NCBI RefSeq assembly: GCF_000350145.1
Contig: NZ_BAOL01000008.1
Coordinates: 1-64,000 of the forward strand
DNA from: Ilumatobacter nonamiensis YM16-303
GTDB taxonomy: Bacteria; Actinomycetota; Acidimicrobiia; Acidimicrobiales; Ilumatobacteraceae
Length of the DNA: 64,000 nucleotides
Direction of reading: 5' to 3'
Of this stretch, positions 22,707 through 32,818 are shown one piece after another. The notes below the pieces were generated by a model. That model saw only the letters and a list, made by a program, of their open reading frames with translations. It searched no databases and was not told where the DNA came from. Within the stretch, counting starts at the first letter, position 1, and each line of letters starts with the position of its first letter. The translations under genes and the position numbers were made by a program.

Positions 22707-22720
22707 GGGTCGAAGGTCCC
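22707..22720 (+). promoter_or_regulatory. DosR-like box 1 (universal stress protein promoter)
   Basis: GGGTCGAAGGTCCC matches the core GGGAC-N4-GTCCC of DosR/DevR operators with one change. Its centre (22713.5) is exactly 42.5 bp upstream of the A of the ATG at 22756. A GACACT hexamer (22744-22749) lies at -12 to -7 relative to that A. This is the class II activator geometry on a leaderless promoter. Confidence 0.75.
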
Positions 22721-22755
22721 TGGCGGCGGCGGAGCCGGCGGCGGACACTGAAGCC

Positions 22756-23610
22756 ATGAAGCATCGCCTGATCGTCGGCTATGACGGCTCGGCCGCCTCG
22801 ACCGAGGCTCTCGAATGGGCGGCGCGCGAAGCCGAGTCACGCGGCGCAGCCGTGCACGTCCTTTCGTCGTACGCGCCGCCACCCGTGCTCGATTTCGGAT
22901 ACGCCACGGCCGGCGCGATCTGGGACGACGACCAGATCCCCGCATGGATGGCACACCAGCTCAGCGAGGCGGTGACGGCGACGTTCGAGAATCATGCAGG
23001 GGTCGAACACACGTGTGCGGCGGTCGGAGTTCGGCCCGGCACGGCATTGATCGAAGCCGCGCGCGAGGCCGACCTGCTCGCCGTCGGGAGTTCAGGCACC
23101 GGGGCAGTGAGCCACCTTCTGCTGGGGTCGGTGACCGCCGAGCTGTTGGCCTCGAGCCCGTGCCCGGTCGTCGTCTGTCCGACCGAGACGCATGACACGA
23201 CCGGTCGGGTGGTGGTCGGAACCGACGGGTCGGACCCCGCCGGTCGTGCGGTGGAGTGGGCCGTCGAGGAGGCGAATCGTCGCCGGTGCGAGCTCGTCGT
23301 GGCCCACGCCTGGACCCCGACGGCGCGCCTCATCGGCGAAGGGACGGGTCGAGGCGGCCGCATGCACGAGGTCGGCGCCGAACTCGTGCTCGAGCACGCG
23401 GTACGTCGGGTCCGAGACATGGGCGACGCTTCCGCGAAACCGGCGCTCGTCCAAGGTGGGGCATCGCAGGTGTTGCTCGATCTCTCGGAGACGGCCGATC
23501 TCGTGGTCGTCGGTTCTCGCGGACGGGGAGGGTTCCGGTCGATGTTGTTCGGCTCCGTTGCCCACGCGGTCGCTGCCCATGCCTCGTGTCCTGCGGTGAT
23601 CGTGCACTGA
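22756..23610 (+). CDS. Universal stress protein, tandem UspA domains
   Basis: A 284-residue protein with two UspA domains (about 1-140 and 150-284). Each has the ATP-binding G-2x-G-9x-G(S/T) signature: GSSGTGAVSHLLLGSVT in the first and GSRGRGGFRSMLFGSVA in the second. In mycobacteria, tandem Usps are typical DosR-regulon members expressed in hypoxia or NO stress. Here a DosR-like box lies at -42.5 from the start codon, so the same control is likely. It is probably a cytoplasmic ATP-binding sensor or metabolic modulator. Confidence 0.93.
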   Translation: MKHRLIVGYDGSAASTEALEWAAREAESRGAAVHVLSSYAPPPVLDFGYATAGAIWDDDQIPAWMAHQLSEAVTATFENHAGVEHTCAAVGVRPGTALIEAAREADLLAVGSSGTGAVSHLLLGSVTAELLASSPCPVVVCPTETHDTTGRVVVGTDGSDPAGRAVEWAVEEANRRRCELVVAHAWTPTARLIGEGTGRGGRMHEVGAELVLEHAVRRVRDMGDASAKPALVQGGASQVLLDLSETADLVVVGSRGRGGFRSMLFGSVAHAVAAHASCPAVIVH

Positions 23611-23644
23611 CGGAGTCTCACGAAGGTGACCCGATCCAGGGATC

Positions 23645-23658
23645 GGGACCTTTGGCCC
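23645..23658 (+). promoter_or_regulatory. DosR-like box 2 (multicopper oxidase promoter)
   Basis: GGGACCTTTGGCCC keeps the GGGAC half-site and a CCC half-site. If it acts at -42.5, transcription starts at about 23694. The hexamer at the predicted -12 to -7 (23682-23687) is CAGAAT, a good -10. The transcript would then have a 35-nt leader carrying a GGAGAAG ribosome-binding site before the ATG at 23729. It overlaps the right end of a small hairpin (23630-23647). Confidence 0.65.
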
Positions 23659-23728
23659 TGTGGATCGCGATCCTCGCGATCCAGAATGCTGCTCACGCAG
23701 TTCAGCGAACCCGAATGGAGAAGCCTGC

Positions 23729-25153
23729 ATGTCCGTGATCGACCAGCCGTCGACCCAAACGCCACCGCCTCCCCCGGCGAACGATGACGGTCCCCGTGGA
23801 TTGATCGGCTCACTGCTGTTCGCCCTCGGCGTACTCGGCATCCTCGCCATCATGCTCGCTCTGATCGCGCTGGCGTTCGTGGCGCTCATCCGCGACGACT
23901 CCGGTGGGGACGCCGGTGGCTCGGCGAGTGCACTCGACGTCTCGCTCAGTGAGTTCGCGATCGAGGGAGAACTCAGTGCACCTGCGGGTGACGTCACACT
24001 CAACATCGTCAACGCTGGCGCCATCGAACACAACCTGGCGGTTCGCGAGCTCGATGTCCAGAGCAACAACATGCAGTCGCGTGGGGTGGACACACTTGCA
24101 CTCGGAGAACTCGAAGCGGGGTCGTACGAGCTCTACTGCAGCATCTCGGGCCACGCCGAGTCCGGGATGACCGCCGAACTCGTCATCGGTGAAGCCGACT
24201 CGTTCGAGCCGGCCGAACTCGGCGACGAACATGCGGGCCTGTCAGCCGAGGAGATGGACCAGCTGATGGTCGATTCCATGCTGGCATTCCCCGCAGAGAC
24301 CGAGGGACTCGGCAACCAGCTGCTGGAACCGGAGATCCTCGCCGACGGGACGAAACGATTCGAACTGACCGCCGAGGTGATCCCGTGGGAGGTGTCACCG
24401 GACGAGTTCGTGGAGGCGTGGGCCTACAACGGTCAAGTCCCGGGGCCGCAGATCAGGGTCGACATCGGTGACAAGGTCGAGGTCGAGCTGACCAACCTCA
24501 CACCGATGGGAACCGACATCCACTGGCACGGCGTCCACACGCCCAACGACCAGGACGGTGTGTCCCCCTACACCCAGGATCCAGTGGCAACGGGTGAGAC
24601 GTTCACGTACAACTTCGTCGCCGAGGACCCTGCGATCGGCATGTACCACGCGCATCTGCACAGTCAGACGTCGGTGATCAACGGAATGTTCGCCGCGTTC
24701 CAGATCGGCGACAATCCGCTCCCGTACGGTCAGACCGTCGCCGGGGTCGAGATCCCCGCTGACCTCGAACCGGCCTTCGAGGAGCCCATGGTGCTCAACG
24801 ATGCCGGCACGATCGGACTGACGCTCAACGGCAAGAGTTTCCCGGCCACCGAACCGATCGTCATCGACGAAGGCGAGTGGGGAGTCATCCACTACTACAA
24901 CGAGGGGCTCACGGCGCACCCGATGCACCTCCACCAGTTCCCCCAGTTGGTGTATGCGAAGGACGGGATCCCACTCGACAGTCCGTACTGGGCCGACACG
25001 GTCAACGTCGCCCCGGGCGAGCGGTACTCGGTGCTCTTCCAGGCCGACGCGGTCGGCACGTGGGTGTACCACTGCCACATCCTCACCCATGTCGAACGAG
25101 CCGACGGGATGTTCGGAATGGTGACCGCAATGGTCGTCAACCCCAAGGAGTGA
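23729..25153 (+). CDS. Membrane-anchored cupredoxin / two-domain multicopper oxidase fusion
   Basis: A 474-residue protein. A Pro-rich start is followed by one transmembrane helix (about 25-55), an N-terminal blue-copper domain (His101, Cys137, His142, Met147) and a two-domain laccase-like oxidase. All four multicopper signatures are present: HWH (265-267), HAH (307-309), HPMHLH (397-402) and HCHILTH (448-454, with axial Met461). It should oxidise an organic or metal substrate, or reduce O2 (possibly nitrite), outside the membrane, with the extra cupredoxin as a built-in electron relay. It is followed by a coupled cupredoxin lipoprotein. The ATG has GGAGAAG upstream. Confidence 0.88.
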   Translation: MSVIDQPSTQTPPPPPANDDGPRGLIGSLLFALGVLGILAIMLALIALAFVALIRDDSGGDAGGSASALDVSLSEFAIEGELSAPAGDVTLNIVNAGAIEHNLAVRELDVQSNNMQSRGVDTLALGELEAGSYELYCSISGHAESGMTAELVIGEADSFEPAELGDEHAGLSAEEMDQLMVDSMLAFPAETEGLGNQLLEPEILADGTKRFELTAEVIPWEVSPDEFVEAWAYNGQVPGPQIRVDIGDKVEVELTNLTPMGTDIHWHGVHTPNDQDGVSPYTQDPVATGETFTYNFVAEDPAIGMYHAHLHSQTSVINGMFAAFQIGDNPLPYGQTVAGVEIPADLEPAFEEPMVLNDAGTIGLTLNGKSFPATEPIVIDEGEWGVIHYYNEGLTAHPMHLHQFPQLVYAKDGIPLDSPYWADTVNVAPGERYSVLFQADAVGTWVYHCHILTHVERADGMFGMVTAMVVNPKE

Positions 25154-25157
25154 CGCC

Positions 25158-25577
25158 GTGAAGCCACACGCCGGCGCAGCGTTGCCGCTCGATGGTCGGT
25201 CATCTCCCTCGTCGGTCGCACGAGGGAGATGGCTCCCCGCGGTCGTGACGCTCATGATTCTCGTGGCGATCGGGTGCGGTTGCGCAACGTCGTCCGAGGG
25301 CAGCTCCGGAGAGCCCACCTTCTCCTTCGTCATTCCCGCCGGTTCCGGCGAGCGGATCGAACGCGGTGAGACCCTCGACATCCTCCCCCGCGAGTTGGTC
25401 GCGACGGTGGGCGAGACGATCGTGATCTCGAACGAGGACGATCAGGCGCACCTGCTCGGACCCTGGTTTCTCGGTCCCGGTGAGACGCTCCGCCAACGAT
25501 TCACCACGATCGGAAGGTTCGAGGACTCCTGCAGCGTGCATCCGGCGGGCCGGTTCGCGGTCATCGTCGAGGCCTGA
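25158..25577 (+). CDS. Cupredoxin-like lipoprotein
   Basis: A 139-residue exported protein: signal segment WLPAVVTLMILVAIGCG with a lipobox cysteine, then a plastocyanin-like fold. Candidate copper ligands are His98 (DDQAHLLG), Cys125 and His128 (SCSVHPAG). No Met follows, so the axial ligand differs from a classical type-1 site. The GTG start is 4 nt after the oxidase stop, with AAGGAG inside the end of the oxidase gene, so the two are co-translated. It may pass electrons to or from the oxidase. Confidence 0.78.
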   Translation: MKPHAGAALPLDGRSSPSSVARGRWLPAVVTLMILVAIGCGCATSSEGSSGEPTFSFVIPAGSGERIERGETLDILPRELVATVGETIVISNEDDQAHLLGPWFLGPGETLRQRFTTIGRFEDSCSVHPAGRFAVIVEA

Positions 25578-25594
25578 CGGCCGACGCCGCCCTC

Positions 25595-26038
25595 TCAGCG
25601 GTGGACGGCGAAACGTCGGCCTGTCGTGGCCGATGGGACGATGCGGACGAAATACGGTTTGACACCGGACTGCCACGAGGCCAGATCGACGTTGAACAGG
25701 CCGAACAGCTCGTTGCGGTCCGTGATCAACGTCGCGTCTCCTTTGACGACGACGCTCCACGCCGAAGCTTCGTACCAGTCGAAATGGTCGACCTCGAACG
25801 CCACCGAGGGCGCGTCAGCAAGGCTGTCGAGCTTCGTGCCCGAAGCGGTGCGCAACAGCACGGTGTTGCGATCCACGGCGAAGTTCACCGGGAAGATGTC
25901 GACGCCCCCGTTCGCGAGCTGGACAGCGAGCCGACCGATGTCGGCACCCCGGAGCAACTCCCAACAGGTATCGACGCTCAGCTCGTCGGTCTTCTCGATC
26001 GAAGTGGTCCCGCCACGGGGTCGACTCGGAGTCTCCAT
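25595..26038 (-). CDS. Pyridoxamine 5'-phosphate oxidase (PPOX) family protein
   Basis: A 147-residue split-barrel FMN- or F420-binding protein (LRGADIGRLAVQLANGGVDIFPVNF, FEVDHFDWYEASAWSVVVKG). Actinobacterial members are F420- or flavin-dependent reductases or haem-binding proteins, and several belong to the mycobacterial DosR regulon. A perfect DosR-type palindrome is centred 42.5 bp before the ATG, with TCGGAT at -12 to -7. The gene converges on the cupredoxin gene, 17 bp apart. Confidence 0.87.
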   Translation of the reverse strand: METPSRPRGGTTSIEKTDELSVDTCWELLRGADIGRLAVQLANGGVDIFPVNFAVDRNTVLLRTASGTKLDSLADAPSVAFEVDHFDWYEASAWSVVVKGDATLITDRNELFGLFNVDLASWQSGVKPYFVRIVPSATTGRRFAVHR

Positions 26039-26073
26039 CCCATCATCCGACCACGCTCACGCTCGGATCGGTA

Positions 26074-26087
26074 GGGACGAAGGTCCC
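26074..26087 (-). promoter_or_regulatory. DosR-like box 3 (PPOX gene promoter), best match
   Basis: GGGACGAAGGTCCC has both half-sites (GGGAC and GTCCC) intact. Its centre (26080.5) is exactly 42.5 bp upstream of the first base of the PPOX ATG at 26038, with the -10 TCGGAT at 26045-26050. This is the same geometry as box 1. Confidence 0.78.
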
Positions 26088-26103: not shown

Positions 26104-26754
26104 TCAGCAGTCGTCTTTGGCGGGGATGACGATCTTCAGGCCGGGGTAGAACGCGTCGTAGCCGTTCGTGCCCTGGTTGGCCTCGTCCATCGCCTCGACG
26201 GTGACGTCGAACTTCTCGGCCACCGCGGTACGGCTGGTGTCGCCTTCTTCGATCGTGTAGCTGCCGGCCTCGCAGTTGCTACCGGGATCGGGGATCGTCT
26301 CGCCGGTCTCGGTGGAGGCTGTTTCCTCGGCGTCGCCGTCCGCGTCGTCGTCGGCGTCCGCGTCGTCATCCGTCTCCTCGGCGGGAGCGGTGGCGTTCGC
26401 GGGGATCTTGATGATCGAACCCGGTCCGGGGAACTCGCTGCCGACATCGGCCCAGCCGTTGGCTGCCGCGAGTTCGGCGAGCGTGATGCCGAAATCGTCG
26501 GCCACCTTGATGCCGTAATCACCGGCCTGCACTTCGTAGTCGGTCGTGGGTCCGGATGCCGCCGCTTCCTCGGGAGCGAGCGTCGAGGTGGTCGCGGGCG
26601 CGATCGTGGCGTAGCTGGTCTCGCCGCCGGCGAGCGTGACGGTCGGCTTCGACGCGGCGTCGGAATCGTCGCCACCGCAGGCGCCGAGCAGCAGCGCGGC
26701 GGCGACGGCCGGGCCGACGACCGCGGCGATGCGCGAGGACGTGTTCGACTTCAT
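26104..26754 (-). CDS. LysM-domain lipoprotein
   Basis: A 216-residue exported protein with a lipobox (LLLGACG), a Thr-rich linker and two LysM-like modules (YEVQAGDYGIKVADDFGI... and YTIEEGDTSRTAVAEKFDV...). The modules are separated by a highly acidic Asp/Glu/Ala stretch (about residues 125-150). LysM modules bind peptidoglycan glycans, so it likely sits at the cell wall. Two cysteines (Cys158 region and the last residue) may pair. The ATG has TAGACT (26761-26766) 6 nt upstream, indicating a leaderless mRNA. Confidence 0.86.
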   Translation of the reverse strand: MKSNTSSRIAAVVGPAVAAALLLGACGGDDSDAASKPTVTLAGGETSYATIAPATTSTLAPEEAAASGPTTDYEVQAGDYGIKVADDFGITLAELAAANGWADVGSEFPGPGSIIKIPANATAPAEETDDDADADDDADGDAEETASTETGETIPDPGSNCEAGSYTIEEGDTSRTAVAEKFDVTVEAMDEANQGTNGYDAFYPGLKIVIPAKDDC

Positions 26755-26819: not shown

Positions 26820-28274
26820 TCACATCAGTGGTCGGGCCGTCGGCGGGATCGGAACGGGCAGACGGGTTTCGCCCATCAGGTACTCGTCGACTCCGGCGGC
26901 CGCCGCGCGTCCTTCCGCGATGGCCCAGACGATGAGGCTCTGACCGCGACCCATGTCGCCGGCGACGAACACGCCGGGCCGATTCGTCATGTATCGCTCG
27001 TCACGCTCGACGTTGCCGCGCGCGTCGTACTCGAGCGCCATCTCGTCGAGCCAGGAACCCTTCTCCGGTCCGACGAAACCCATCGCCAGGAACACGAAAT
27101 CGGCGGGAATCCGACGATCCGTCCCCTCGACCTTGGTGAACTTGCCGTCGATCATCTCGACCTCGTGCAGGTCGAGCGCCGCCACGTTGCCGTCGCCGTC
27201 GTCCACGAACTGCTCGGTGTTGACGCTGTACAGCCGTTCGCCACCCTCCTCGTGGGCGGAGGTGACCTTGTAGACCATCGCGAACTGCGGCCACGGATTC
27301 TGGGCTGCCGCTCGCTGCTCGGGCGGCATCGGCATGATCTCGAGCTGCGTCACGGACGCAGCACCCTGACGATGCGCGGTTCCGAGACAGTCGGCGCCGG
27401 TGTCGCCGCCGCCGATGATGACGACGTGCTTGCCGTTGACGTCGATCGGGGACCGCTCCATGTCGCCCAACTGCACACGGTTCGACGGCGGCAGGTACTC
27501 CATCGCCTGATGGATGCCGTTCAGTTCGCGTCCCGGAATCGGCAGGTCCCGCCACTGGGTTGCACCGCACGCCAGGACGATCGCATCGTGGCTGGCGCGA
27601 AGCACCTCCATGTCGACCGTGGATCCGACCGCCGCGTTCGTGCGGAACTCGGTCCCCTCCGCTTCCATCTGCTCGAGGCGCCGGTCGATGTGGCGCTTCT
27701 CCATCTTGAACTCGGGAATGCCGTAGCGGAGGAGGCCACCGATCCGATCGGCGCGCTCGAGCACGACGACGTCGTGACCCGCTCGGGTCAGCTGCTGCGC
27801 AGCGGCGAGTCCTGCCGGCCCGGATCCGATCACAGCGATCTTCTTGCCGGTCCGCACCGACGGAACGTGCGGTGTGACCCAGCCCTCCTCGAAGGCGCGG
27901 TCGATGATCTCGACCTCGATCCGCTTGATCGCCACCGGATCCTGGTTGATCCCGAGCACGCACGCCGACTCACACGGTGCCGGGCAGAGCCGACCGGTGA
28001 ACTCGGGGAAGTTGTTCGTGGCGTGCAGACGCTCGATCGCGTCCTGCCACTGATCCCGATAGACGAGATCGTTCCAGTCGGGAATCAGGTTGCCGAGCGG
28101 GCAGCCGTTGTTGCAGAACGGGATGCCGCAGTCCATGCAGCGCGCCGCCTGATGGTTCAGCGCCTCGGCCGGGAACGGTTCGTAGACCTCTTTCCAGTCC
28201 TTCAACCGAACCGGCACCGGCCGATGCTTCGCGGTCTCCCGCCCGAACTCGAGAAATCCAGTTGGCTTGCCCAT
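26820..28274 (-). CDS. gltD: Glutamate synthase small subunit
   Basis: A 484-residue NADPH-dependent GOGAT beta subunit. The N-terminal cysteine clusters (CMDCGIPFCNNGC and CPAPCESAC) bind the [4Fe-4S] centres; GSGPAGLAAAQQL binds FAD and IGGGDTGADC binds NADPH. It feeds electrons to GltB for making glutamate from glutamine and 2-oxoglutarate. It begins 2 nt after the gltB stop. The frame stays open further upstream, but that part is the shadow of gltB; the MGKPTGFLEF start fits the family. Confidence 0.97.
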   Translation of the reverse strand: MGKPTGFLEFGRETAKHRPVPVRLKDWKEVYEPFPAEALNHQAARCMDCGIPFCNNGCPLGNLIPDWNDLVYRDQWQDAIERLHATNNFPEFTGRLCPAPCESACVLGINQDPVAIKRIEVEIIDRAFEEGWVTPHVPSVRTGKKIAVIGSGPAGLAAAQQLTRAGHDVVVLERADRIGGLLRYGIPEFKMEKRHIDRRLEQMEAEGTEFRTNAAVGSTVDMEVLRASHDAIVLACGATQWRDLPIPGRELNGIHQAMEYLPPSNRVQLGDMERSPIDVNGKHVVIIGGGDTGADCLGTAHRQGAASVTQLEIMPMPPEQRAAAQNPWPQFAMVYKVTSAHEEGGERLYSVNTEQFVDDGDGNVAALDLHEVEMIDGKFTKVEGTDRRIPADFVFLAMGFVGPEKGSWLDEMALEYDARGNVERDERYMTNRPGVFVAGDMGRGQSLIVWAIAEGRAAAAGVDEYLMGETRLPVPIPPTARPLM

Positions 28275-28276
28275 GA

Positions 28277-31200
28277 TCAGACCCTCGCTGCTTCCATGAT
28301 CTTCTCGACGGTCTGTTCGTCGTCGAGTCCGTCGGCTTCCGATCGTGCGATGACCGTGAGCACCCGCTTGTAGTCGAGTGGCATCACCTTGCGGAACTTC
28401 GACACGTCGACCGCCCACGAGTTGAGGATCGACGTGGCGACCGGCGAGCCGGTGAAGTCGCGATGGCGCAGCACCGCGTCGTGCAGGAACGACCGGTCGT
28501 CGTCGCTCAGCGGTTCGAGTTCGACCATCTCGTAGTTCACCTTGTCGGCGAACTTGCCGTCCGGGTCGTAGACGTACGCAATACCGCCGGACATCCCGGC
28601 GCCGAAGTTGCGTCCGGTCGAGCCGAGCACGACCACACGGCCACCGGTCATGTACTCGCAACCATGGTCGCCGACGCCCTCGCTCACCGCCAGGGCACCG
28701 GAGTTCCGGACGCAGAACCGCTCCCCCACCATTCCGCGCAGGAAGATCTCGCCGCCGGTCGCGCCGTAGCCGATGACGTTGCCGGCGATCACCTGATCCT
28801 CCGCGGCGAACGACGCATCGGGGTGCGGATGGACGATCAGACGGCCGCCGGACAACCCCTTGCCGAGGTAGTCGTTGGTGTCTCCGATGAGGCGCATCTG
28901 GATTCCGGACGGGACGAACGCACCGAAGCTCTGTCCGGCCGAGCCGGTGAAGGTGATGTCGATCGTGCCGTCGGGCAGACCCTCGCCCTTCCACTTCTTC
29001 GTGACCTCGTGGCCGAGCAGCGTGCCCGTCGTGCGGTTGATGTTGCGGATCGGCATGTCGATCTCGACCCGTTGCGCGTCGTCGATCGCCGGCTGTGCCT
29101 GCTCGATCAACTGCTGGTCGAGCGCCACGTCGAGTTCGTGATCCTGGCCGACCGACTGCACCATGGTCTGGCCGTACGGGTTCTCCGGCACCATCAAGAT
29201 CGGCGAGATGTCGAGACCCGAGGCCTTCCAGTGGTCGATCGCCTGACGGGTGTCGAGGCATTCGACGTGGCCGATCATCTCGTCCATCGTGCGGAAGCCG
29301 AGGACCGCCATGATCTCGCGGACCTCCTCCGCGATGAACTGCATGAAGTTCACGACGAACTCGGCCTTGCCGGCGTACCGGTCGCGGAGCACGGGATTCT
29401 GGGTCGCGATCCCGACGGGACACGTGTCGAGGTGGCAGACGCGCATCATGATGCAGCCCGACACGACCAACGGTGCAGTGGCGAAGCCGTACTCCTCGGC
29501 GCCGAGCAGCGCGGCGACAACGACGTCGCGACCGGTCTTCATCTGACCGTCCGCCTGGACGATGATCCGGTCACGGAGACCGTTCAGCATCAGCGTCTGC
29601 TGCGTCTCGGCCAAACCGAGTTCCCACGGACCGCCGGCGTGTTTGAGCGAGGTCAGCGGGCTTGCGCCCGTGCCGCCGTCGTGACCCGAGATCAGGACCA
29701 CGTCGGCCTTCGCCTTCGAGACGCCGGCCGCAACCGTCCCGACGCCGGTCTCGGCGACCAACTTGACGTGGATCCGCGCGGACGGGTTGGCGTTCTTGAG
29801 GTCGTGGATCAGCTGCTTGAGATCCTCGATCGAGTAGATGTCGTGGTGCGGCGGCGGGCTGATGAGCCCGACACCCGGTGTGCTGTGGCGGGTCTCGGCG
29901 ATCCACGGGTACACCTTGTGCCCGGGAAGCTGGCCGCCTTCGCCCGGCTTGGCACCCTGGGCCATCTTGATCTGGATGTCGTCGGAGTTGGTCAGGTACT
30001 CCGACGTCACGCCGAACCGGCCGGAGGCGACCTGCTTGATCGCCGAGCGGCGTTCGGGGTCGTACAGCCGGTCGGGGTTCTCGCCGCCCTCGCCGGTGTT
30101 CGACTTCGCACCGATCTGGTTCATGGCGATCGCCAGGGTCTCATGCGCTTCCGCGGAGATCGATCCGTAGCTCATCGCTCCGGTCGAGAAGCGCTTGACG
30201 ATCTCGGAGACCGGCTCGACCTCGTCGATCGGAACCGGCGTGCGGTCCACCACGAAATCGAACAGGCCCCGCAACGTCATCAGCTTCTTCGACTGGTCGT
30301 CGACGGTTGCCGTGTAGTCCTTGAAGATGTCGTAGCGGCCACTGCGCGTCGAGTGCTGCAGCTTGTAGACGGTCTCGGGGTTGAACAGGTGCGGCTCACC
30401 CTCGCGACGCCACTGGTACTCGCCGCCGAGTTCGAGCTTGCGGTGCGCGCGTTCCTCGGGCCGCCTCGGATTCGCAGCCTGGTGGCGGTCGGCGACCTCC
30501 CGGGCGAGCTCGTCGAGGCCGATGCCCCCGAGCTTCGACACGGTTCCGGTGAAGTACTTGTCGATGAGTTCGTCGCCGAGGCCGATCGCCTCGAAGATCT
30601 GGGCGCCCGTGTACGACGCGACGGTCGACACGCCCATCTTCGACATCACCTTCAGCACGCCCTTGTTGGCGGCCTTGATGTAGTTGCGGATCGCCTGCTT
30701 CGGATCGAGATCACCCATCCCGTGCATGCCTTCGGCGATCAGGTCCTCGATCGACTCGAACGCCAAGTACGGGTTGATCGCGCCGGCGCCGTAGCCGATC
30801 AGCAACGCCATGTGATGCACCTCGCGGGCGTCACCGGCCTCGACGATCAGTCCCGCCATGGTGCGCTGCTTCGTGCGCACGAGATGATGGTGCACGGCGG
30901 CGGTGAGCAGCAGCGACGGGATCGGGGCATCGACGGTGTCGGCGTTGCGGTCGGAGAGCACGATGATGCGTGCGCCTTCCTCGATCGCGGTCGACGCCTG
31001 GCTGCACACGCGCTCGATCGCTTCGGCGAGACCGGGGCCACCGCTGTCGACCCGGTAGAGACCGGACAGCACCTTGGCGCGCAGTCCCGGGTGCTCACCG
31101 GCGGCGTCGATGTGGATGATCTTCGCGAGTTCGTCGTTGTCGATGATCGGGTTCGGCAGCGCGAGTTGCTTGCAGGAGTCAGGACCGGGCGACAGCAGGT

Positions 31201-32818
31201 TCGCCTCCGGGCCGACCGTCGACGACACCGAGGTGACCACCTCTTCGCGGATCGCGTCGAGCGGCGGGTTCGTCACCTGAGCGAACAACTGCTTGAAGTA
31301 GTCGAACACCAGTCGAGGACGTTCCGACAGCACGGCCAGCGGCGTATCGGTGCCCATCGAGCCCAGCGCTTCCATCCCCCGCATCGCCATCGGCGAGATC
31401 AGGATCTTCAACTCCTCGTGCGTGTAGCCGAACATCTGCTGGCGGCGCAGCACGCTGTCGTGGCTGAACACGACGTGCTCGCGTTCGGGCAGCTCACCGA
31501 GCTCGACCAGTCCCGCCTCGAGCCACTCGCCGTACGGGTGCAGGGACGCGAGCGACGCCTTGATCTCGTCGTCGCCGACGATCCGGCCCTCGTCGGTGTC
31601 GATCAGGAACATCTTTCCCGGCTGGAGACGCCCCTTGGCGATCACGTTCGCAGGTTCCACGTCGATGACACCGACCTCGGAGGCCATCACGACCATGTCG
31701 TCGTCGGTGACCCAGTAGCGACTCGGACGCAGACCGTTGCGGTCGAGCACCGCTCCGATCACCTTGCCGTCGGTGAACGTGACGCTCGCCGGCCCGTCCC
31801 ACGGCTCCATCATCGATGCGTGGAAGCGGAAGAAGTCCCGCAGTTCCTTCGACATCGTCGTGTCGTTCTCCCACGCCGACGGGATCATCATCATCACCGC
31901 GTGGTGCAGCGGGTAGCCGCCGAGGTGCAACAGTTCGAGCACCTCGTCGAAGCGAGCGGTGTCCGACGAGCCCGGCGTGCAGATCGGGAAGGCCCGATCG
32001 ATCCCCGGAAGGTTCGGGCTCTCGAGCATCGCCTCCCGGGCGCGCATCCAGTTCTGGTTGCCCTGCACCGTGTTGATCTCGCCGTTGTGGGCGACGAAAC
32101 GGTACGGGTGCGCGAGCGGCCACGACGGAAACGTGTTGGTCGAGAACCGCGAGTGGACGAGGAGCAGCGCCGACTCGATCCGAGGGTCGGTCAGGTCGCC
32201 GAAGAACTGACTCAGCTGCGGCGTGGTGAGCATCCCCTTGTACACGATCGTCCGCGACGACAGCGACGCGAAGTACGTGTCGAGTTCGTCGACGAGTTCG
32301 CGTCGCGACCGCTTGCGGGCGACGAATGCCTTGCGGTCGAGGTCGATGCCCGTCGCTCCACCCGGGTCGGAGACGAACAGCTGCTTGAACGTCGGCATCG
32401 CGGCTCGCGCGGTCTTGCCGAGGCAGTCGGGATTCACCGGCAGGTCGCGCCATCCGAGCACCTGCAGGCCGACGTCGGCGACGGTCGCGTCGATCGCTGC
32501 CTGGGCCTTCTCACAGGCAACGCCCTCGGCGGGAAGGAACGCGATCCCCGTCGCGTACGCGCCGGCCGGCGGGAGATCGAAGTCGACGACCTCGCGGTAG
32601 AGCACGTCGGAGACCTGCAGCAGAATTCCTGCACCGTCGCCGGTGTCCGGCTCGGCGCCGGTTGCACCGCGGTGTTCGAGGTTGGTGAGTGCCGTCAGTC
32701 CCGTGACCACGAGATCGTTCGAGCGTGCGCCCTTGAGGTTCGCGACGAAGGAGACTCCACAGGAGTCGTGTTCGTTGCGGGGGTCGTACAGTCCGATTGG
32801 TCCGGGAGCATGGATCAT
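28277..32818 (-). CDS. gltB: Glutamate synthase large subunit
   Basis: A 1513-residue GOGAT alpha subunit. A short 19-residue propeptide precedes Cys20 (HDSCGVSF), the catalytic N-terminal nucleophile of the class II glutaminase domain. The central and FMN-binding synthase domains follow; the 3Fe-4S cysteines are in [15 protein letters not shown]; the C-terminal GXGXG beta-helix ends near residue 1490. With gltD it forms the ammonia-assimilation operon. The upstream leader holds several hairpins and a TAGGAT -10. Full length, no odd residues. Confidence 0.98.

Follow-up and report, generated by a model that had tools for sequence, protein, structure and literature searches.

The first 64,000 nucleotides of contig NZ_BAOL01000008.1 of Ilumatobacter nonamiensis YM16-303 (Acidimicrobiia; assembly GCF_000350145.1), which we refer to as the window, contain a small island of genes for which a first-pass annotation had proposed control by DosR, the classic regulator of hypoxia and dormancy responses in Mycobacterium tuberculosis. 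The island begins with a gene for a tandem universal stress protein (Usp; 22756-23610, + strand; Pfam Usp E-value 9.5e-53, in two stretches), followed on the same strand by a gene for a membrane-anchored cupredoxin joined to a two-domain multicopper oxidase (MCO; 23729-25153; Pfam Cu-oxidase_3/_2 and Cupredoxin_1). Next come a small lipoprotein-like cupredoxin candidate (25158-25577, + strand), which has no Pfam match and an uncertain start codon, and, on the minus strand, a PPOX gene of the flavin/heme-type split-barrel kind (25595-26038; Pfam Pyridox_ox_2 E-value 9.5e-24). We verified the sequences and coordinates of three DosR-type boxes: box 1 in the Usp promoter (GGGTCGAAGGTCCC, or GGGACCTTCGACCC on the reverse strand; 22707-22720, no strand assigned), box 2 in the MCO promoter (GGGACCTTTGGCCC; 23645-23658, + strand), and box 3 in the PPOX promoter (GGGACGAAGGTCCC, or GGGACCTTCGTCCC on the gene strand; 26074-26087, - strand). 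Usp and PPOX, which the annotation had called typical DosR targets, are both preceded by a box. When each box is read in its best orientation (GGGACCTTCGACCC, GGGACCTTTGGCCC and GGGACCTTCGTCCC for boxes 1, 2 and 3), all three contain the strict core GGGACYTTNGNCCC.

In M. tuberculosis, the class II rule places the DosR/DevR box at about -42.5. The center of box 1 (22713.5) is exactly 42.5 bp from the Usp ATG at 22756, and that of box 3 (26080.5) is exactly 42.5 bp from the PPOX ATG at 26038 on the minus strand, as had been claimed for two of the boxes; the center of box 2 is 77.5 bp from the MCO ATG at 23729. The three -10-like hexamers listed by the annotation are likewise present at the -12 to -7 offsets: GACACT in the Usp promoter (22744-22749, + strand; A at -11, T at -7), which fits the A(+31.5)/T(+35.5) pattern of the leaderless boxes of relatives, TCGGAT in the PPOX promoter (26050-26045, - strand; T at -7, no A at -11), and CAGAAT in the MCO promoter (23682-23687, + strand), counted from a predicted start at 23694. 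MCO promoters of the same genus carry CAGGCT, CAGACT or GAAGAT at an offset identical to that of CAGAAT (A at -11, T at -7), and a GGAG is found at 23717-23720, 8 nt ahead of the MCO ATG. From this arrangement the Usp and PPOX mRNAs, products of two of the three island promoters, are probably leaderless, and the MCO mRNA is predicted to start near 23694 with a 35-nt leader carrying the GGAG. Between box 2 and the MCO -10 hexamer there is also a perfect inverted repeat, GGATCGCGA-TCC-TCGCGATCC (23662-23682); since it was not seen in the printed same-genus MCO promoters, it is perhaps a second operator. Separately, a hairpin (CCCGATC-CAGG-GATCGGG, 23631-23648) follows the Usp stop codon; box 2 shares its GGG with the right arm of this hairpin.

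Genome-wide site counts were made by pattern searches, and neighborhoods were read from individual sequence stretches. The loosest form of the palindrome, GGGNCNNNNGNCCC, showed no genome-wide enrichment (77 sites; reversed control, 137), which indicates that the YTTN core matters and which would also be expected if the boxes and their spacing were chance products of a GC-rich genome. We regard such an origin as extremely improbable, because the strict core occurs in only three copies in the 4.28-Mb genome, all of them in the island, and because the box is kept at a fixed distance in 42/62 orthologue promoters (see below). A looser form, GGGACYTNNGNCCC, adds two genome sites, one in the hrcA/dnaJ gap (contig C268) and one within rimO (contig C316), the latter dismissed as chance. 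Searching with the published DosR/DevR consensus NNNGGGHCNWWNGNCCCBNN (core GGGHCNWWNGNCCCB; Rhodococcus equi paper, PMC2947987) gave five strand-wise matches in the window, found only at the three boxes, vs. 0.56 expected; 0/100 window shuffles reached this count, and matches in the whole genome fall at eight distinct places.

The regulator and its kinase

The annotation had noted that the regulator gene is absent from the window, had made its proposal depend on a DosR homologue elsewhere in the genome, and had advised looking for a DosS/DosT-type sensor as well. We found the homologue on another contig (C388:2949-3599). Among 19 GerE-domain matches in the genome, this protein is 50% identical to M. 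tuberculosis DosR (the next own regulator has 39% identity), and its best PDB match is DevR (4.5e-61, vs. 2e-35 for VraR). A tree of 48 regulators placed it with M. tuberculosis DosR and the DosR proteins of relatives at a support of 100/99, with the seven own NarL-type paralogues tested outside this clade. The protein keeps the phospho-acceptor D54, K104 and the DNA-contact residues K179, K182 and N183; T198 and T205 are not kept.

As for the sensor, the expectation held less well, as the convergent neighbor of dosR encodes a PAS-HisKA_3-HATPase kinase with a FixL-like PAS domain and not a GAF domain. It has a HisKA_3 kinase module like those of DosS/DosT and an ATPase domain closest to DosT/DosS, whereas the PAS domain is closest to the heme-PAS of FixL (E-value 2e-15). 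All 25 aligned kinase rows (one of which duplicates the own kinase) have a histidine where FixL has its heme ligand His200; R220 is not kept. A histidine at this position may be common in non-heme PAS domains too, so the partner kinase is only a candidate for heme binding and heme sensing. No heme-GAF DosS/T kinase was found in the own genome, and one relative (G092) has the GAF type; the GAF type, however, defines DosS/T and not membership in a DosR regulon.

Conservation of the boxes among relatives

We sought the MCO and DosR in 149 relatives and counted their co-occurrence over 148 genomes. The MCO was present in 55/148 and DosR in 71/148, with both in 48 (odds ratio 21, p = 7e-14), and the two genes were often within about 1-12 kb of each other. 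The MCO also adjoins DosR in Nitriliruptoraceae (L157, L159 and L160) and in a Frankiaceae fragment (L180), and a Dehalococcoidia (Chloroflexi) metagenome-assembled genome has an MCO with a DosR-type box, GGGACTAAAGTCCC (L171, 7774-7787); these occurrences possibly reflect transfer or a wider system.

For the neighborhoods and named loci of the relatives, a box was called when a site in the 200 bp upstream scored 10/12 or more, and Markov shuffles served as the null. Boxes preceded 42/62 MCO orthologues (null mean 3.5, maximum 8) and, at a score of at least 11/12, 35/62 (null 0.23), a conservation that supports the annotation's suggestion of DosR-type control of a laccase-like oxidase. Counted by genome, the MCO box was found in 30/34 DosR-positive and 0/4 testable DosR-negative genomes (hypergeometric p about 0.001, uncorrected for phylogeny). 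The 42.5-bp distance predicted for class II promoters also recurs class-wide: for 212 intergenic boxes an ATG was at offset 42.5 in 36 cases, vs. a mean of 6.5 per offset, and intragenic boxes had no such peak (3 vs. 2.7). Aligned leaderless promoters of the relatives show A at -11 and, in 85% of cases, T at -7. In the MCO promoters of distant relatives a second set of half-sites is most frequent 22 bp further downstream, indicating tandem boxes; with this spacing the distal box would lie near -64.5 and the other near -42.5, as in the tandem arrangement of DevR boxes.

The box-linked genes of the relatives encode Usp, PPOX, CBS, S30AE/HPF, P-type ATPase, PPDK, D-LDH, dihydroorotate-dehydrogenase-like and baeRF-family proteins. 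DosR targets in M. tuberculosis include Usp, PPOX, CBS, HPF, CtpF and a baeRF protein; neither CydAB nor an MCO of the present type is known to be among them. In G092 (L140) the box-linked genes are those for DosR, the GAF kinase, PPOX proteins and CydAB (box at L140 10656), and cydA of the G092 subfamily was boxed in 6/7 genomes compared with 3/22 for other cydA genes (L140, L203-L208), which suggests that bd oxidase is under DosR control in some lineages of the class.

Our own genome offers few further sites. Of its 24 one-mismatch sites, 21 are inside genes and three are intergenic. One intergenic box, GTGACCTTGGACCC (C357:5840-5853), has a PPOX ATG exactly 42.5 bp away and belongs to a mini-cluster (C357:4359-6883, L195) of Usp, the boxed PPOX and a divergent D-2-hydroxyacid (lactate) dehydrogenase-like gene. 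Another (C373:832, L197) is midway between divergent genes, ~105-109 bp from each called start, and the third is the site in the hrcA/dnaJ gap. The product of one of the C373 genes begins MTKELDGQTIAFLVANEGVEQVEL and is DJ-1/PfpI-like by eye. Strictly defined, the regulon of this genome is small and comprises about four promoters.

The search for more -42.5 sites, which the annotation had recommended, thus added one new PPOX promoter, but the number of sites with at most one mismatch did not exceed that of the control (27 vs. 25, with exact copies counted), and this weighs against a DosR regulon here, as do several other observations. The own dosR and kinase promoters have no recognizable box (best 8/12), unlike those of many relatives, so that autoregulation is not visible. 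Four DosR-positive relatives show no MCO box, and some genomes have the MCO but no DosR, so that the link between oxidase and regulator is not universal. In addition, the scorer and the gene caller that gave the box threshold and the gene starts were simple ones of our own making, and the compared species are phylogenetically non-independent. The unboxed dosR is also what one might expect if the palindromes were sites of another NarL/LuxR-family regulator (VraR/LiaR-like, or an own response regulator) whose likeness to DosR is coincidental; the number of GerE-domain proteins leaves room for such a regulator, and K179 and N183 are each kept in 3/7 of the tested paralogues. We consider this quite improbable, since the boxes equal the published DosR consensus, DosR co-occurs with and neighbors the MCO, the box is missing from all four testable DosR-less MCO genomes, boxes at 42.5/43.5 stand ahead of dosR itself in nine relatives, and the gene content near boxes is DosR-like. 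We are accordingly very confident, as far as sequence comparison can take us, that DosR would control the island, and only a little less so that the region belongs to a DosR regulon of the Acidimicrobiia working by the mechanism outlined here.

From the boxes, their geometry, the regulator, the conservation and the copper ligands described below, all of which are present in the sequences, we infer the signal, binding, transcription starts and enzyme reaction as follows. The adjacent PAS-HisKA_3-HATPase kinase would presumably respond to low O2, NO or a redox signal by phosphorylating the C388 DosR, and a DosR dimer would bind the three boxes, centered at -42.5, and recruit RNA polymerase to weak -10 elements by class II activation. 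For Usp and PPOX, the mRNA would start at or near the ATG, and the MCO mRNA would have its 35-nt leader and Shine-Dalgarno sequence and probably include the small cupredoxin.

This arrangement shares with the DosR-DosS-DosT regulon of M. tuberculosis the regulator orthologue, the box core, the predicted -42.5 spacing, in part the tandem boxes, and Usp and PPOX targets, to which the relatives add CBS, HPF, P-type ATPase and baeRF proteins. It differs in its host class, in having a partner kinase with a FixL-like PAS where the M. tuberculosis kinases have heme-GAF domains, in having the MCO as a conserved target, and, in the present genome, in its very small strict regulon without visible autoregulation. 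OsdR/OsdK of Streptomyces coelicolor (PMC5069765) is also comparable, having a DosR-type regulator, a palindromic GGNCC box and Usp and PPOX targets; however, its consensus is AGGGCCGATCGGCCCT, and the words 'copper', 'multicopper' and 'laccase' are absent from the text of that paper. No paper on DosR in the Acidimicrobiia turned up in the literature collection that we searched.

The copper oxidase and its possible role

Residues 24-57 of the MCO protein form an N-terminal helix, which is followed by a blue-copper domain and a two-domain MCO. In the blue-copper domain H101, C137, H142 and M147 are invariant in relatives, and in the MCO part the laccase-type ligands H265, H267, H307, H309, H397, H400, H402, H448, C449, H450 and H454 are kept at 96-100% and M461 at 87%. 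The T1 ligands H397, C449 and H454 are in the last domain, and the T2/T3 histidines are in both MCO domains. A structure model of the monomer (mean pLDDT 88.5) had a fold nearest to two-domain laccases (2zwn). These type B enzymes, represented by 2zwn (metagenome) and 3g5w (Nitrosomonas europaea blue copper oxidase), have 34% and 33% identity to the MCO part, a TM of about 0.74, laccase-type ligands and T1 in domain 2, but the present protein differs in its preceding membrane anchor and N-terminal blue-copper domain and in its link to DosR. The three-domain nitrite reductase of Hyphomicrobium denitrificans (2dv6, 6tfo) likewise has its N-terminal cupredoxin ahead of two further cupredoxin domains; identity to it is about 20%, and the MCO ligands are laccase-type and not NirK-type. 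The first MCO domain has YHAHLH where NirK has its HC motif, leaving C449 as the sole Cys ligand of the MCO domains, and on these ligands we rejected a NirK identity. The small cupredoxin gene, which starts 4 bp past the MCO gene and also adjoins it in the same-genus genomes G002, G007 and G009 (55-61% identity), is probably co-transcribed with the MCO.

Such a membrane-anchored protein would most likely pass electrons from its tethered, extracytoplasmic blue-copper domain to a laccase-type trinuclear center, where O2 would be reduced to water. It would then serve at low O2 as an electron sink or as a scavenger of O2, a role similar to that of the bd oxidase whose genes are preceded by the same boxes in some relatives. 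We give this O2-reducing electron sink roughly an even chance. Somewhat below it we place the case in which the island is under DosR and the MCO is instead a copper-detoxification enzyme, a metal- or phenol-oxidizing laccase, or reactive with NO or nitrite. The substrates of two-domain MCOs are varied, the domain order is like that of the three-domain nitrite reductase, and the mycobacterial DosR regulon responds to NO and CO; on the other hand, the NirK-type T1 Cys is replaced, the T1 ligands are in the last domain as in laccases, the bd oxidase of relatives carries the same boxes, and a cydA search of the own genome found none. A strict alternation, in which the MCO replaces bd oxidase, was dropped because several genomes carry both.

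The annotation's observation holds, as does most of its interpretation, an electron-disposal role for the oxidase being the more conjectural part. Our best reading of the sequences is that the laccase-like MCO is a new, conserved core target of a DosR-type regulon in a new class. More tentatively, and with less than even confidence, we suggest a class-wide regulon of the Acidimicrobiia and relatives in which a membrane-tethered cupredoxin-laccase would be a core member and act as a copper-based alternative terminal oxidase at low O2, with a FixL-like PAS kinase as the switch instead of DosS/T and, in some lineages, bd oxidase as a further oxidase under DosR. The occurrence of DosR site, spacing, regulator and targets in free-living Acidimicrobiia would make this circuit far older or wider than pathogen biology, and the addition of a putatively O2-consuming copper enzyme (and, in relatives, of bd oxidase) to its targets bears on the energetic role of the DosR response.

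Adjoining the island, with no DosR-type box seen ahead of them, are a LysM lipoprotein-like gene (26104-26754) and glutamate-synthase-like genes (26820-32818).

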